64,000 bases of DNA. Origin: Pseudanabaena sp. (GTDB lineage Bacteria > Cyanobacteriota > Cyanobacteriia > Pseudanabaenales > Pseudanabaenaceae). The notes beneath the pieces were generated by a model that ran no database searches, was not told the origin of the DNA, and saw only the letters and a program-made list of their open reading frames with translations. Of this stretch, positions 12,300-59,841 are shown piece by piece. The stretch covers positions 186,001 to 250,000 of the forward strand of contig QBMK01000006.1 in NCBI GenBank assembly GCA_003249035.1, read 5' to 3'. Positions within the stretch are counted from its first letter, which is position 1, and every line of letters begins with the position of its first letter. The translations under genes were made by a program, and so were the position numbers.

Positions 12300-14447
12300 C
12301 TAGAATTTCTCTCCTATCCCAAAGCTAAACTGAGTGCTTCCGTTTGAGCCTATGCCATAATCCACTCTGATCGAACCCAGAGGAGATTGAACCCGCACCC
12401 CAATACCATAACCAGAACCACTACCTGGCTTGCCCCGTCTTCCAGCAGGATTAGTATCCACGGCTGAGTCTGAACCTAAAGCCGTACCATAGTCAAAGAA
12501 CAGGACTCCGCCGACGATGTTAAAGACTGGGAATCGGTATTCAGCCGAAAAGAGGGCAAAACTGCGCCCACTAGCAATTTGCCCTTCTTCCCAACCTCTT
12601 ACTGAACTAGTACCACCCAGTTGGAATGCTTCGTATTGAGGTAAAGTTCCAAACGCGGTGCCGCCTTGGAGGTTAAATGCCAATGCTTGAGGACCTTCAG
12701 AGAACCTTAAGAAGCCAACAGGGATAAAAAAGCTGTAACTAGCCCGAATCCGATTCATAAAAATTGCGCCTAAACCAACTGGGATCGATTGCTCTGTAGC
12801 AACCCTAAATAGGGAGCCAGAGGTTGGCTTAGCCGGGTCATTTCGTTGATCGGTAGCATAGGCAAACTGTAGCACTAGTAAATCATCTTGCCCAGTCCCA
12901 CTAACTGTGAAAGGAAATCCCTGAGAGTCAACTGTAGCAACTTCGCCAGTAGAGCTACTCCTAACGCTAACTCGTTCATAACGAAGCCCAAGTGAAGCAG
13001 TTGAACCAACACCCAATGGTCTCGAGAAGCTAAAGCTAGTCCCAAGACGGTTTATGCGAGGACTGACGTTATCTGGTCCAATACCAATAGGCGCATCGAA
13101 AATATAGCTAAATAAATTACGGTTAAAAATATTGGCAGTAAACGAGGTGCGATATGGATCGCCAGCCAACCAAGGATCGGTAAAGTTAAGGTCAAATAAT
13201 ACTTCAGACTGACCGACTTGAAGATCTACACCAATTTTTTGGTTATTACCACCAAAGTTTTGTTGTTGGTAACTGATTGTCCCAAATAAACCTGATTGGG
13301 AGCTTAAGCCAGCACCAGCTGAGATCGAGCCGGTGTTGCGTTCTTTCACATTGACCGTCACGATCACTTGGCGTGGATCTGACGCGGGAGCAAGACCAAT
13401 GTTGAGATCTTCAAACAATCCAAGAGCAAAAACTTTTTGTAAATCAGCTTGAACTACATTTTTATTAAAGATTTCACCTTCTTTAATCGACAGCTCACGC
13501 GTAATAATAAAGTCGCGAGTAGTCCCAGTAACAGGCTTACCTTCTTTGTCTACGGTTTTGCCGTCTTCATTAATAAAAGCAACTTTGATACCTTCGATCA
13601 CACCTTCAGTTATTACTAAATTGATGTTTCCTTCAGGAGTTGCCTTGATATCAACAATTTGAGCTAGAACGTAACCCTTGTCTTGGTACCACTTTTCGAG
13701 TTCTTTAACCCCTGCTTGGATATCCTTGAGATTAGTTACTTTGCCGACTTGTGGACCAAAAATGCGATCGATTACACCCGCTTCTAATACCTTTGTCCCG
13801 TCTGCGTTAACAGATTTGAGGACTGGATTTGGCAATACAAAGAAAGTTACACGTACACCAATATCCGTATCTTCTGGCTCAGCTTGAACATTTGAGAAAA
13901 AGCCTGTGGCAAATACAGCATTTATATCAGATTGGAGCTGGGTCCGAGTTACAGTTCGTCCTGGTTTTGTCGAGATCACATCATAAATTCTTTGCTCAAG
14001 TTCAGGTGGTAGAGGAGGTTGTCCCTCAGGGGTTTTAATCGCAACTTCTCCAACAAGCACCTGAGCTTCAGTTGAAGTTGTGGGAGGAGGATTGGTAGAT
14101 GGTAGGGTAAAAGTTGGTGATGAACTAGGAGGTGTACTCGGAGTGGTGGGCTGATCAGGCTTTTTTGGTGAAGTGGGAGTGCTGGTGGTGGGCTGATCAG
14201 GCTTTTTGGGTGAAGTGGGAGTAGGGGTTGTTGGCAGGGTAAGAGTTGGTGGTGCACTCGTCGGGACATCAGGCGTGCTTGGCTTTGCAGGAGAAGTGCC
14301 TTCAGGTGCGGCGGGAAGAGTGGTTGGCTGTGGAGTTGGTACTTGAGCAATCTCTTGCTTTGCAGGAGCAGCCTTTGCCAGCAAAGGAATTGTTAGTAAC
14401 GTGCTGGATGCGGCAATGGCTGTGAATACGAGCAAGTTTATACGCAT
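12300..14447 (-). CDS. bamA: Omp85/BamA-family outer-membrane protein with Pro/Thr-rich linker
   Basis: Product of 715 residues. A signal peptide (INLLVFTAIAASSTLLTIPLLAKA) is followed by a Pro/Thr/Ser-rich linker of about 100 residues holding two copies of a 14-residue unit (PTSPKKPDQPTT..). POTRA domains follow (about 130-370), then a 16-strand surface-antigen barrel with SVRGWEEG near residue 595 and the terminal aromatic IGEKF. It inserts beta-barrel proteins into the outer membrane. I use the ATG at 14445-14447, which begins the signal peptide; the frame extends 4 codons to a TTG. It heads the envelope operon with lpxC 2 nt downstream. Confidence 0.93.
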   Translation of the reverse strand: MRINLLVFTAIAASSTLLTIPLLAKAAPAKQEIAQVPTPQPTTLPAAPEGTSPAKPSTPDVPTSAPPTLTLPTTPTPTSPKKPDQPTTSTPTSPKKPDQPTTPSTPPSSSPTFTLPSTNPPPTTSTEAQVLVGEVAIKTPEGQPPLPPELEQRIYDVISTKPGRTVTRTQLQSDINAVFATGFFSNVQAEPEDTDIGVRVTFFVLPNPVLKSVNADGTKVLEAGVIDRIFGPQVGKVTNLKDIQAGVKELEKWYQDKGYVLAQIVDIKATPEGNINLVITEGVIEGIKVAFINEDGKTVDKEGKPVTGTTRDFIITRELSIKEGEIFNKNVVQADLQKVFALGLFEDLNIGLAPASDPRQVIVTVNVKERNTGSISAGAGLSSQSGLFGTISYQQQNFGGNNQKIGVDLQVGQSEVLFDLNFTDPWLAGDPYRTSFTANIFNRNLFSYIFDAPIGIGPDNVSPRINRLGTSFSFSRPLGVGSTASLGLRYERVSVRSSSTGEVATVDSQGFPFTVSGTGQDDLLVLQFAYATDQRNDPAKPTSGSLFRVATEQSIPVGLGAIFMNRIRASYSFFIPVGFLRFSEGPQALAFNLQGGTAFGTLPQYEAFQLGGTSSVRGWEEGQIASGRSFALFSAEYRFPVFNIVGGVLFFDYGTALGSDSAVDTNPAGRRGKPGSGSGYGIGVRVQSPLGSIRVDYGIGSNGSTQFSFGIGEKF

Positions 14448-14627
14448 AGAGTCTTCCAAACACCTAACAGAAATTTATACAGAATACTTAACAGAAAACT
14501 ATTGACGGAAAATTGTGAACAGAAAGTTTCTGATAGTAAAAATTACTATAACTTTCAACACCCCTATATTGCTAGACGTAATTCACTAAGAACAGAATTT
14601 TGTGGTTTTGATTAACCTACAGTATTG

Positions 14628-15492: not shown

Positions 15493-16959
15493 TTAAATCA
15501 AGCCTAGAGCTGCTAACTGAGCCTGAGCTTTTTGCAAAGATTCATGCCATTCGCGATCGCTGACACTATCAGCGACAATCCCTGCCCCGACCTGTCCCCA
15601 GATATGATTATCGGTTTTGAGCAAAGTCCGAATCAGAATATTTAGATCCATATTTCCACGCCGATCGATATAGCCACAAGAGCCGTAAAACAAACTACGA
15701 CGCTGAGGCTCCAACTTTTCGACGATTTCCATACAGCGTACTTTTGGACAACCCGTAATTGTGCCCCCTGGAAAAGTGGCGCGAATCAGATCGACAAAGG
15801 TGCGATCGCTCCGTAGCGTCCCCACCACATTACTCACAAGATGCATAACGTGACTATATCGCTCGATCGCTAATAATTCGTCTACTTTTATGCTGCCCCA
15901 TTCACAGACTCTGCCAAGGTCATTGCGCTCAAGGTCAACCAGCATAATATGTTCGGCTTGCTCTTTGGTGCATGCAAGTAATTCGCGCTCAAATTCGAGA
16001 TCTTGCTGTTTATCTTTACCGCGAGGTCTTGTGCCTGCGATCGGTCGGGTTTCAGCATGGCGATCTCGCAAGCTGACCAGCCGCTCAGGGGAAACACTAA
16101 TTACTTCACCCCAAGTTGTGCGCCAATAGCTAGCAAATGGGGAGGGGTTAATTTTTTGCAAATGTCGGTACAGTTGCCATCCATCCGATGTCCAAGGGTA
16201 GCCAAACCGCATTGAGAGATTCGCCTGAAAAATATCACCAGCATAAATGTGCTTTTTTGCCTTTTCCACCATGGTTTCATAGCCTTGTTGCTCTGGTGAA
16301 TAGGTTGGTTGTATCCCCGCCAAAGGCGGGGATACAACTCGTTGTAGTTGCTCTGGTGAAAAAGTTAGATTTGTCTCTGCTGAAGGCGAGGATCCAATTC
16401 GCTGTAGCTGTTCTGGTGAAAAAGTTGTTTTTGTCTCCGCCTTTGAAAGAGGTAAAGTTTGATTTTTTTGAGAAAACCCAAAACTTAGCCGATCGCTTAG
16501 TTCGGTTAATTCGCGATTATCGCTAGCAGCTAGCCAAATCTTTTGCGTCTGATGATCGAGCACAGCAAAGCTAGATGGCTCGTACCAAAAGGCAACTGGA
16601 AATGGCAAAGTATCTGGCTTGGTATAGGGCAATCGCTCAATTTCCCAAGCGAAGTCATAGCCTAGCCAACCTAAATATCCACCTGTGAATGGTAAATGAT
16701 TCGGTAAATCTTGAGGATTTCGAGAAGGCTGCATCCGCGATCGCATTTTTTCAAGACAAGGTAGAATCTTACCTACCTCAGGAGTCCAAACCTGCCGAGG
16801 TTTTCCTGCTGCGATCGAATATCTTGCTAATTTTGAAGGGACTGTGGCTGGACTTTCTAGTAGAGCTGTAATTGGTTCGTCAGCATAAAGCGATTCCCAT
16901 AGATCAGCACCTGTAATATTTTCAGGTAGCGATCGCTGAAGCCATACCCAATCAGTCAT
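15493..16959 (-). CDS. pabB: Aminodeoxychorismate synthase component I-like protein (PabB), with repeat insertion
   Basis: The 488-residue protein has the anthranilate synthase/PabB N-terminal domain (FTGGYLGWLGYDFAWEIE) and a complete chorismate-binding domain: AGDIFQANLSMRF, PIAGTRPRG, ELLACTKEQAEHIMLVDLERND, TFPGGTITGCPKVRCMEIV. It would form aminodeoxychorismate for folate. TrpE is less likely because no anthranilate feedback motif is clear and PIAGTRPRG plus overall length fit PabB. Between the domains (about residues 170-225) lies an unusual insert in which a 20-residue unit containing TFSPEQLQR repeats about 2.7 times. The matching 60-bp DNA repeats and a 31-nt perfect hairpin lie at about 16295-16440. 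No pabA is adjacent. Confidence 0.88.
   Translation of the reverse strand: MTDWVWLQRSLPENITGADLWESLYADEPITALLESPATVPSKLARYSIAAGKPRQVWTPEVGKILPCLEKMRSRMQPSRNPQDLPNHLPFTGGYLGWLGYDFAWEIERLPYTKPDTLPFPVAFWYEPSSFAVLDHQTQKIWLAASDNRELTELSDRLSFGFSQKNQTLPLSKAETKTTFSPEQLQRIGSSPSAETNLTFSPEQLQRVVSPPLAGIQPTYSPEQQGYETMVEKAKKHIYAGDIFQANLSMRFGYPWTSDGWQLYRHLQKINPSPFASYWRTTWGEVISVSPERLVSLRDRHAETRPIAGTRPRGKDKQQDLEFERELLACTKEQAEHIMLVDLERNDLGRVCEWGSIKVDELLAIERYSHVMHLVSNVVGTLRSDRTFVDLIRATFPGGTITGCPKVRCMEIVEKLEPQRRSLFYGSCGYIDRRGNMDLNILIRTLLKTDNHIWGQVGAGIVADSVSDREWHESLQKAQAQLAALGLI
16295..16440. repeat. In-frame 60-bp tandem repeat inside pabB with embedded 14-bp perfect hairpin
   Basis: Direct units of 60 bp ending in GCTCTGGTGAA or TTCTGGTGAA occur about 2.7 times. 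One unit contains a perfect hairpin: arms 16308-16321 and 16325-16338 around loop AAA, core GTATCCCCGCC/GGCGGGGATAC. The second unit keeps a decayed version (CTGCTGAAGGCGAGGATCC). The hairpin has the same build as the intergenic ones (GC-rich core, 3-nt loop), suggesting that such an element entered the gene and was then duplicated in frame. Confidence 0.85.
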
Positions 16960-59753: not shown

Positions 59754-59841
59754 ATAAAACCCAAAATTGGTTAGGCGGGCGAAGCCCGCCTAACCAATTT
59801 TGGGTTTTATATGCACACGTTATTTAATTTTCATTCCTAAG
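59754..59841. repeat. 88-bp dispersed hairpin repeat (copy 2)
   Basis: Arms 59754-59780 and 59784-59810 form a perfect 27-bp stem with loop GAA; the tail 59811-59841 matches copy 1. Compared with 2531-2618, the stem pair C-G is A-T here, keeping the pairing, and the loop is the reverse complement of TTC. It lies about 95 nt past the psb28 stop with T-rich ends. Confidence 0.9.

Follow-up and report, generated by a model that had tools for sequence, protein, structure and literature searches.

The tandem array and its hairpin

How a perfect palindrome comes to lie in frame inside an enzyme gene, and what keeps it perfect there, is the question raised by a pabB-like gene of Pseudanabaena sp. 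The gene was found at 15493-16959 on the minus strand of the 64-kb stretch of DNA that was analysed (hereafter the window), which belongs to a genome of 4.55 Mb (G000), and the genus was sampled by 26 genomes, G000 included. The encoded protein of 488 aa belongs to the aminodeoxychorismate synthase component I family and was found to contain the Pfam domains Anth_synt_I_N (PF04715) at residues 27-143 and Chorismate_bind (PF00425) at residues 224-477, its top PDB match being 7pi1 (aminodeoxychorismate synthase component 1). The AlphaFold model was poor (mean pLDDT 57), with residues 166-214 and parts of the catalytic domain below 50. The enzyme presumably works, judging from residues conserved across 27 sequences, and the protein would appear to be unharmed by the hairpin and the array.

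A tandem array with a 60-bp unit was found in the gene at 16287-16441 (minus strand) by TRF (period 60, 2.6 copies, 77% matches) and by repeat search. It is in frame and covers about residues 173-224; the first domain ends at residue 143 and the second starts at residue 224, and the repeat is therefore interdomain. The repeat search gave three registered 60-nt copies at a spacing of 60, with 100, 77 and 62% identity to the reference. The last unit in coding order (16287-16346, minus strand) was found to contain the hairpin together with TYSPEQ, the conserved residues with which the second domain starts, the middle unit (16347-16406, minus strand) a decayed hairpin, IGSSPSAETNLTFSPEQ, and the first unit (16407-16466, minus strand), which is incomplete since the TRF array stops at 16441, a hairpin remnant, PLSKAETKTTFSPEQ. 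The units, in coding order, are PLSKAETKTTFSPEQLQR, IGSSPSAETNLTFSPEQLQR and VVSPPLAGIQPTYSPEQQGYE. The residues YSPEQQGYE are carried by the last coding unit, alongside the intact hairpin.

The hairpin at 16308-16338 (minus strand), which was found by repeat search, family models and folding, is a perfect 14-bp stem with the 3-nt loop TTT on the coding strand; it encodes VVSPPLAGIQ and has a fold energy of -25.8 kcal/mol. The 60-nt unit that bears it folds at -26.8 kcal/mol (z -6.6), whereas folding is weak in the remaining two (-5.0 and -3.5 kcal/mol, z 0.8 and 0.4), the intact hairpin being limited to the last of the three coding units. None of 300 codon shuffles of the G000 linker matched the quality of the hairpin, and the window yielded one occurrence of CCCCGCCNNNGGCGGGG at up to two mismatches, 0.10 being expected by chance. 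A first-pass annotation of this DNA had described a 60-bp unit repeated in frame between the PabB domains and a perfect 14-bp hairpin in one unit, and both descriptions agree with these results, minor corrections aside; its proposal that the last unit holds the original sequence also gains support, as YSPEQQGYE matches a stretch common to the relatives.

The hairpin scan found 37 hairpins in the 64-kb window and 171 in a 464-kb sample of G000 (window included). Only 7 of the 171, the pabB hairpin among them, were located well inside mechanical ORFs of at least 120 aa, which make up 80.6% of the sample, and such palindromes are thus usually absent from genes. Several of the long window hairpins (37 places, for example 2530-2588 and 59754-59810) share the ends TAAAACCC, and their differing middles still pair. 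A further tandem repeat, with 1.9 copies of a 42-bp unit, was found at 14143-14222, within the N-terminal, Pro/Thr-rich region of the ORF at 12300-14459, which is the next but one from the pabB-like ORF.

Kinship with a dispersed palindromic element

A dispersed core, TTTCCCCGCC-NNN-GGCGGGGAAA, which characterises what is called here the CCCCGCC-core element, was found scattered through the genus. A related pattern was matched in 23 of the 26 genomes, at 0 to 34 copies each, the reversed-pattern control giving 0 or 1; G011, G022 and G005 contained 29, 22 and 6 copies of the core, respectively. Among 59 distinct dispersed cores that were read, 40 were found to contain both TATAGCG and CGCTATA ends within 60 bp (at most one mismatch), 15 contained one end and 4 contained none, against 1 of 59 in the shifted control. 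The full element is usually 95 bp long in copies with exact ends, and perfect stems of at least 23 bp were found in 10 of the 59 copies. One copy of G011 (L184:1489-1525) was found to contain arms that deviate from the consensus beside the core and nevertheless form a perfect stem of 20 bp.

The first family pattern missed the pabB copy, which differs at two positions. Family models were then built from 42 cores of the genus, G000 included and pabB excluded, one with structure (R1) and one by sequence only (R2). The pabB hairpin was detected by both (R1 E=2.4e-6, R2 E=9e-6, 172 kb searched), and R2 also detected the pabB hairpins of G013 (1.2e-4) and G012 (0.002). The pabB arm agreed with the family consensus at 12 of 14 positions, whereas the 129 control arms (147 minus 18 with family-like tips, three pabB arms of other species being retained) reached at most 10. 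Because a model free of pabB finds the hairpin by sequence alone, the pabB hairpin is, on these sequence grounds, kin to a scattered palindromic element of Pseudanabaena. Neither of the TATAGCG/CGCTATA ends was found within 60 bp of it at up to one mismatch, and it is therefore a core-only relative and not a member of the full element.

In the window the pabB hairpin was the sole significant match to the family models; the next best window hairpin gave E 2.6 with structure, and none was matched by sequence alone. Its relatives are located elsewhere in the G000 genome, where at least 7 loci, pabB among them, reached E<0.01, scoring having covered 150 of 1381 first-look candidates. When the whole array served as a DNA query against the same genome, it returned nothing but the array (both hairpin strands). 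The earlier remark that the hairpin is built like the intergenic hairpins is thus only partly right.

Six of the 59 dispersed cores were located in mechanical ORFs of at least 150 aa, all in the S-P-P-x-A-G frame. Selection on the reading frame is not claimed, since the full element consensus is stop-free in this frame alone and several of the ORF-borne cores sit near ORF ends. A candidate in-gene copy in the PdxA ORF (L139, another frame) was also discarded, as both the likely start and the PdxA domain are located downstream of it. In a glycosyltransferase ORF of G022 (L153:282-1547:+), a dispersed element at the 3' end supplies the final residues VSPPKAGKQTRTSPD. An alpha-mannosidase-like gene of G000 was found to contain a 17-bp in-frame hairpin in the region of the GH38 C-terminal domain (L245:2750-2786; G000:C57:82750-82786), with a weak family-model match (E=0.0023).

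PabB linkers across the genus

The PabB linkers of 24 of the 26 genus genomes (G007 and G015 being absent) were compared together with five outgroup linkers. In G007 (3.5 Mb, 99% complete) the PabB query gave one weak match (best E 1.7e-9), and neither a close PabB nor TrpE was found by it. On our sorting of the linkers, 9 of the 24 in the genus, G000 included, were found to contain a hairpin of the CCCGCC type or its remnant. This was intact or had one mismatch in G000, G019, G018, G012, G013 and G003, contained several mismatches in G016 and was decayed in G008 and G009; the G003 hairpin has only the tip GCC-TTT-GGC in common with the type. Ten of the 24 linkers contained CAAGGGGCTTAAGCCCCTTG or an altered form of it elsewhere within the linker, the linker of G006 contained the CCCTCTCCCTAGGGGAGAGGG type and that of G001 a ITNYELRITNYEL repeat, and a hairpin of any sorted type was absent from the linkers of G017, G014 and G004. 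The second and third types (CAAGGGGCTTAAGCCCCTTG and CCCTCTCCCTAGGGGAGAGGG) are dispersed too, with matches in 26 and 25 of the 26 genomes, respectively. In 16 of the 24 genus linkers (G023 and G025 among these 16 being near-identical), no more than 5 of 300 codon shuffles equalled the best hairpin of the linker; this held for none of the five outgroup linkers.

Linkers with a single CCCGCC hairpin were 43-50 codons long, and the hairpin-free linkers of the genus together with the five outgroup linkers were 42-54 codons long; the former are no longer than the latter, and there is therefore no length mark of insertion. The linkers of G001 and G006 contained 55 and 57 codons, and those of G000 and G012, with 83 and 73 codons and about three units each, were far longer than the rest. 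As neither a clean empty site nor a target duplication for the hairpin was found among the 24 genus linkers, we can only infer its insertion. Among the 9 species with the CCCGCC type, 8 were found to have 26-35 nt between the end of the hairpin and the second-domain anchor, the exception being G009, for which a different stem was chosen by the scan; TGT-A/G-T next to the core was common to 5 of the 9.

In a nucleotide tree of the gene without the linker, G000 was found to group with G016, G018, G008 and G019 (support 100/96). These four nearest relatives are single-unit, and G012 was placed elsewhere in the tree; on the simplest reading, the tandem expansions of G000 and G012 are probably separate. 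The CCCGCC-type species were scattered on the tree, and its deeper nodes were weak, so that one old acquisition and several acquisitions are indistinguishable. The tandem copies are lineage-specific, and the CCCGCC-type hairpin is old in the genus.

These comparisons bear on the remaining claims of the first-pass annotation. The in-frame position in a linker was borne out, the linker being variable among the relatives. Of the proposed insertion followed by duplication, the later duplication is upheld by the single-unit state of the nearest relatives of G000, whereas a recent insertion missing elsewhere is contradicted by the nine linkers with the hairpin type or its remnant, by their unremarkable length and by the lack of a clean empty site. 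A repeat of equal length in all relatives, which the annotation had named as refuting its view, was not found among the 24 genomes.

Arm co-variation and loop inversion

In the pabB stem, 11 of 16 pairs were found to have changed on both sides over nine species. The stem was paired in 91% of 144 cells, with wobbles in 3 of the 131 paired cells, whereas slid controls were at most 47% paired. The co-variation score was 0.552 against 0.243 in shuffles. The observed value was reached by none of 500 shuffles on four of five measures and by 75 of 500 on the fifth (further pair types); the shuffles take no account of how the species are related, and the co-variation is therefore support and not proof. 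The loop was found to contain TTC in G019 and GAA in G018, with S replaced by K in the protein, and inversion of the loop at pabB itself was found only between these species.

A second gene, encoding an O-antigen-ligase-like protein (PF04932), was found in 25 near-full orthologs with a common variable loop (L202-L226; orthologs of L042:3-1907:-). In G008 this gene contains a perfect 16-bp hairpin with the loop TTC; the sister species G018 has these arms too, with one mismatch, around the loop GAA. In-frame hairpins were also found in G005, G022 and G012, the remaining orthologs containing none or decayed traces. Against the family model, the hairpins of G008, G018 and G005 gave 9e-4, 0.013 and 2.4, respectively, and that of G022 gave no match; the copy in G012 was itself among the 42 cores used to build the model. 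These hairpins are thus not all secure members of the family.

Loop inversion was also found between near-identical genomes. G025, a MAG, and G023, a single contig, diverge by 0.63% over 150 kb. At the stricter threshold 74 hairpins were found and 59 mapped, of which 37 were the same, 17 inverted, 2 symmetric and 3 other; at the looser threshold 90 were found and 73 mapped (46 same, 17 inverted, 2 symmetric, 8 other). The stems with inverted loops were 13-29 bp long. Among 8243 random 3-mers of the same genomes 67 were changed and 1 was inverted, and loop inversion amounts to 78 times the substitution rate per site (61 times at the looser threshold), some flips being possible assembly or population effects because G025 is a MAG. 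ORFs contained 1 hairpin under the stricter threshold and 2 under the looser one; these showed no flip and were all the same in both genomes.

Ten orthologous family cores were compared between G025 and G023, from 19 and 12 stretches, respectively, and 3 of them were found to contain inverted loops, which are counted within the 17. One of these cores was changed by the flip alone, one by the flip together with repair of a mismatch, and one by the flip together with a rewritten left arm that mirrors the right arm. The flips could be accounted for by recombination between the arms, the rewritten arm could not.

In G002 and G021 (1 and 8 contigs, 6% apart), 10 hairpins were mapped, of which 3 were inverted, 1 was the same, 1 symmetric and 5 other, and two of these 5 contained several compensatory changes. 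Nine further, more distant genome pairs gave 13 mapped hairpins with none inverted, 2 the same and 11 other, and this absence of further inversions lowers confidence slightly. G022 and G011 (20 stretches each) shared one orthologous family core, with the same loop and one pair changed on both sides. The E. coli control (K-12 against B, 193 kb, 1.2% divergence) was small, with at most 19 informative hairpins. It gave 0 inverted and 7 same at the stricter threshold, against 17 of 54 in G025/G023 (Fisher p=0.17, not significant), and 0 inverted and 19 same at the looser threshold, against 17 of 63 (Fisher p=0.009).

Origin and maintenance of the pabB hairpin

The account that we regard as probable is that the interdomain linker of pabB is a permissive site with a palindromic core, in which template switching keeps the palindrome and tandem amplification has multiplied it. 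An ancestral element, a palindromic repeat of the dispersed kind, would have been inserted in the linker, where its core would now be found, the CCCGCC-type hairpin being present there through much of the genus. Template switching in DNA replication is the mechanism that we propose, and it may have acted at this pabB copy: one arm would be copied from the other and the loop inverted, the palindrome being kept while its letters change. The variability of the linker, and a core that reads without a stop codon as S-P-P-x-A-G, would let the hairpin persist. In the species of the window, the hairpin and the adjacent TYSPEQ segment would have been duplicated in tandem to about three units, of which the other copies decayed; a similar, presumably independent, expansion is present in G012, elsewhere in the tree.

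On another view, close to that of the first-pass annotation, mobile hairpins were inserted more than once and independently at a single hot spot, so that species or clades differ in their element. This is unlikely, though it is the strongest of the rivals: three different dispersed hairpin families were found in the pabB linker across the genus, copies occur inside the ORFs of other genes, and the CCCGCC-type species are scattered on a weakly resolved tree. Against it count the similar distance between hairpin end and second-domain anchor in 8 of 9 species, TGT-A/G-T next to the core in 5 of 9, and linkers that are not longer and lack the terminal repeats. Less probable still is a functional mRNA hairpin, whose stem would slow ribosomes at the domain boundary and be kept by compensatory selection. 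Such a role would fit the strong fold, the arm co-variation and the 16 significant linkers, whose hairpins stem from three unrelated sequence families; it fits poorly with the 8 genus linkers and five outgroup linkers in which the hairpin is not significant, with the rarity of wobbles, with the loop flips, which RNA selection does not predict, and with the like pattern in the loop of an unrelated membrane protein, the O-antigen-ligase-like protein.

That the hairpin is incidental to an ordinary fast-evolving linker repeat is disfavoured and very improbable. Interdomain linkers vary, the 60-bp array resembles any tandem repeat, and another such repeat (14143-14222) is located in the ORF next but one; the perfect stem was nevertheless reached by no codon shuffle, its kinship with the dispersed family was detected by sequence alone, and its arms co-vary. 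Template switching at a permissive linker, followed by tandem amplification, is the reading that we retain for pabB. A wider proposal, on which we are close to evenly divided, is that template switching in Pseudanabaena is a fast, genome-wide diversifying process. Loops would invert tens of times faster than substitution and arms would be copied onto one another, and dispersed palindromes in protein linkers would become self-renewing coding sequence with toggling residues, for example PPKAG/PPSAG.

Comparison with known systems and meaning for the genus

Arm homogenisation, which is looked for at template-switch sites, was found at pabB and at the family copies of near-identical genomes, and loop inversion was found between close relatives (17 inverted against 37 same in G025/G023). 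In yeast coding genes, template switching between the arms of inverted repeats has been described (Abraham and Hazkani-Covo 2021, PMC8604942), and the ORF examples of that paper include arm homogenisation and spacer inversion, such as GCC-ttc-GGC to GCC-gaa-GGC, with neighbouring amino acids altered. Both features resemble those of Pseudanabaena; the yeast cases are separate inverted repeats of individual genes, whereas the Pseudanabaena hairpins are kin to a dispersed family, common to several species and tandemly amplified. For rRNA hairpins, creation and maintenance by template switching is reported in PMC8794818, where compensatory change together with loop inversion is expected as the strongest support for a template switch and was found to be extremely rare. 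The same footprint was found here, in intergenic and coding hairpins instead of rRNA.

Rickettsia palindromic elements, as outlined in the review PMC10969869, are about 150 bp long with a conserved peptide and are likewise palindromic, dispersed and in frame inside housekeeping genes; the 31-bp core in a 60-bp unit found in Pseudanabaena falls short of that size. PMC6649704 states that the Rickettsia elements lose arm identity over time, whereas the pabB-type arms seem to be re-matched, and the comparison with Rickettsia is best taken as an analogy. The same paper describes coding palindromes of up to 284 bp in the mitochondria of Nematomorpha, whose arms encode conserved residues; these are also perfect palindromes in ORFs that are gained and lost, with arm conversion proposed, but they belong to an organelle genome and are not presented there as a dispersed family, unlike the Pseudanabaena hairpins. 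Small inversions at chloroplast hairpins, in which short stretches bordered by inverted repeats change orientation from one relative to another, are mentioned in PMC12928735 (citing Kim and Lee 2005). There the genomes are plastid, whereas the present case is a cyanobacterial genome with in-frame examples.

The mechanism is already known from yeast genes and rRNA, and the Pseudanabaena setting appears to be new; among the matches listed for cyanobacterial hairpins, loop inversion and template switching, a search that covered few subscription papers, none dealt with dispersed hairpins in frame or with rapid inversion of loops in Pseudanabaena. The case connects three subjects that are usually considered separately: palindromic repeats dispersed in genomes, mutation by template switching, and the way in which protein linkers evolve. 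If the proposed reading is right, short coding palindromes would stay perfect without function or repeated transposition, and compensatory co-variation, which is often taken as proof of RNA structure, could arise from DNA copying alone. The near-identical genomes of the genus allow the timing of the process, and the small inversions seen at hairpins of chloroplasts may have a bacterial, cyanobacterial counterpart in Pseudanabaena.
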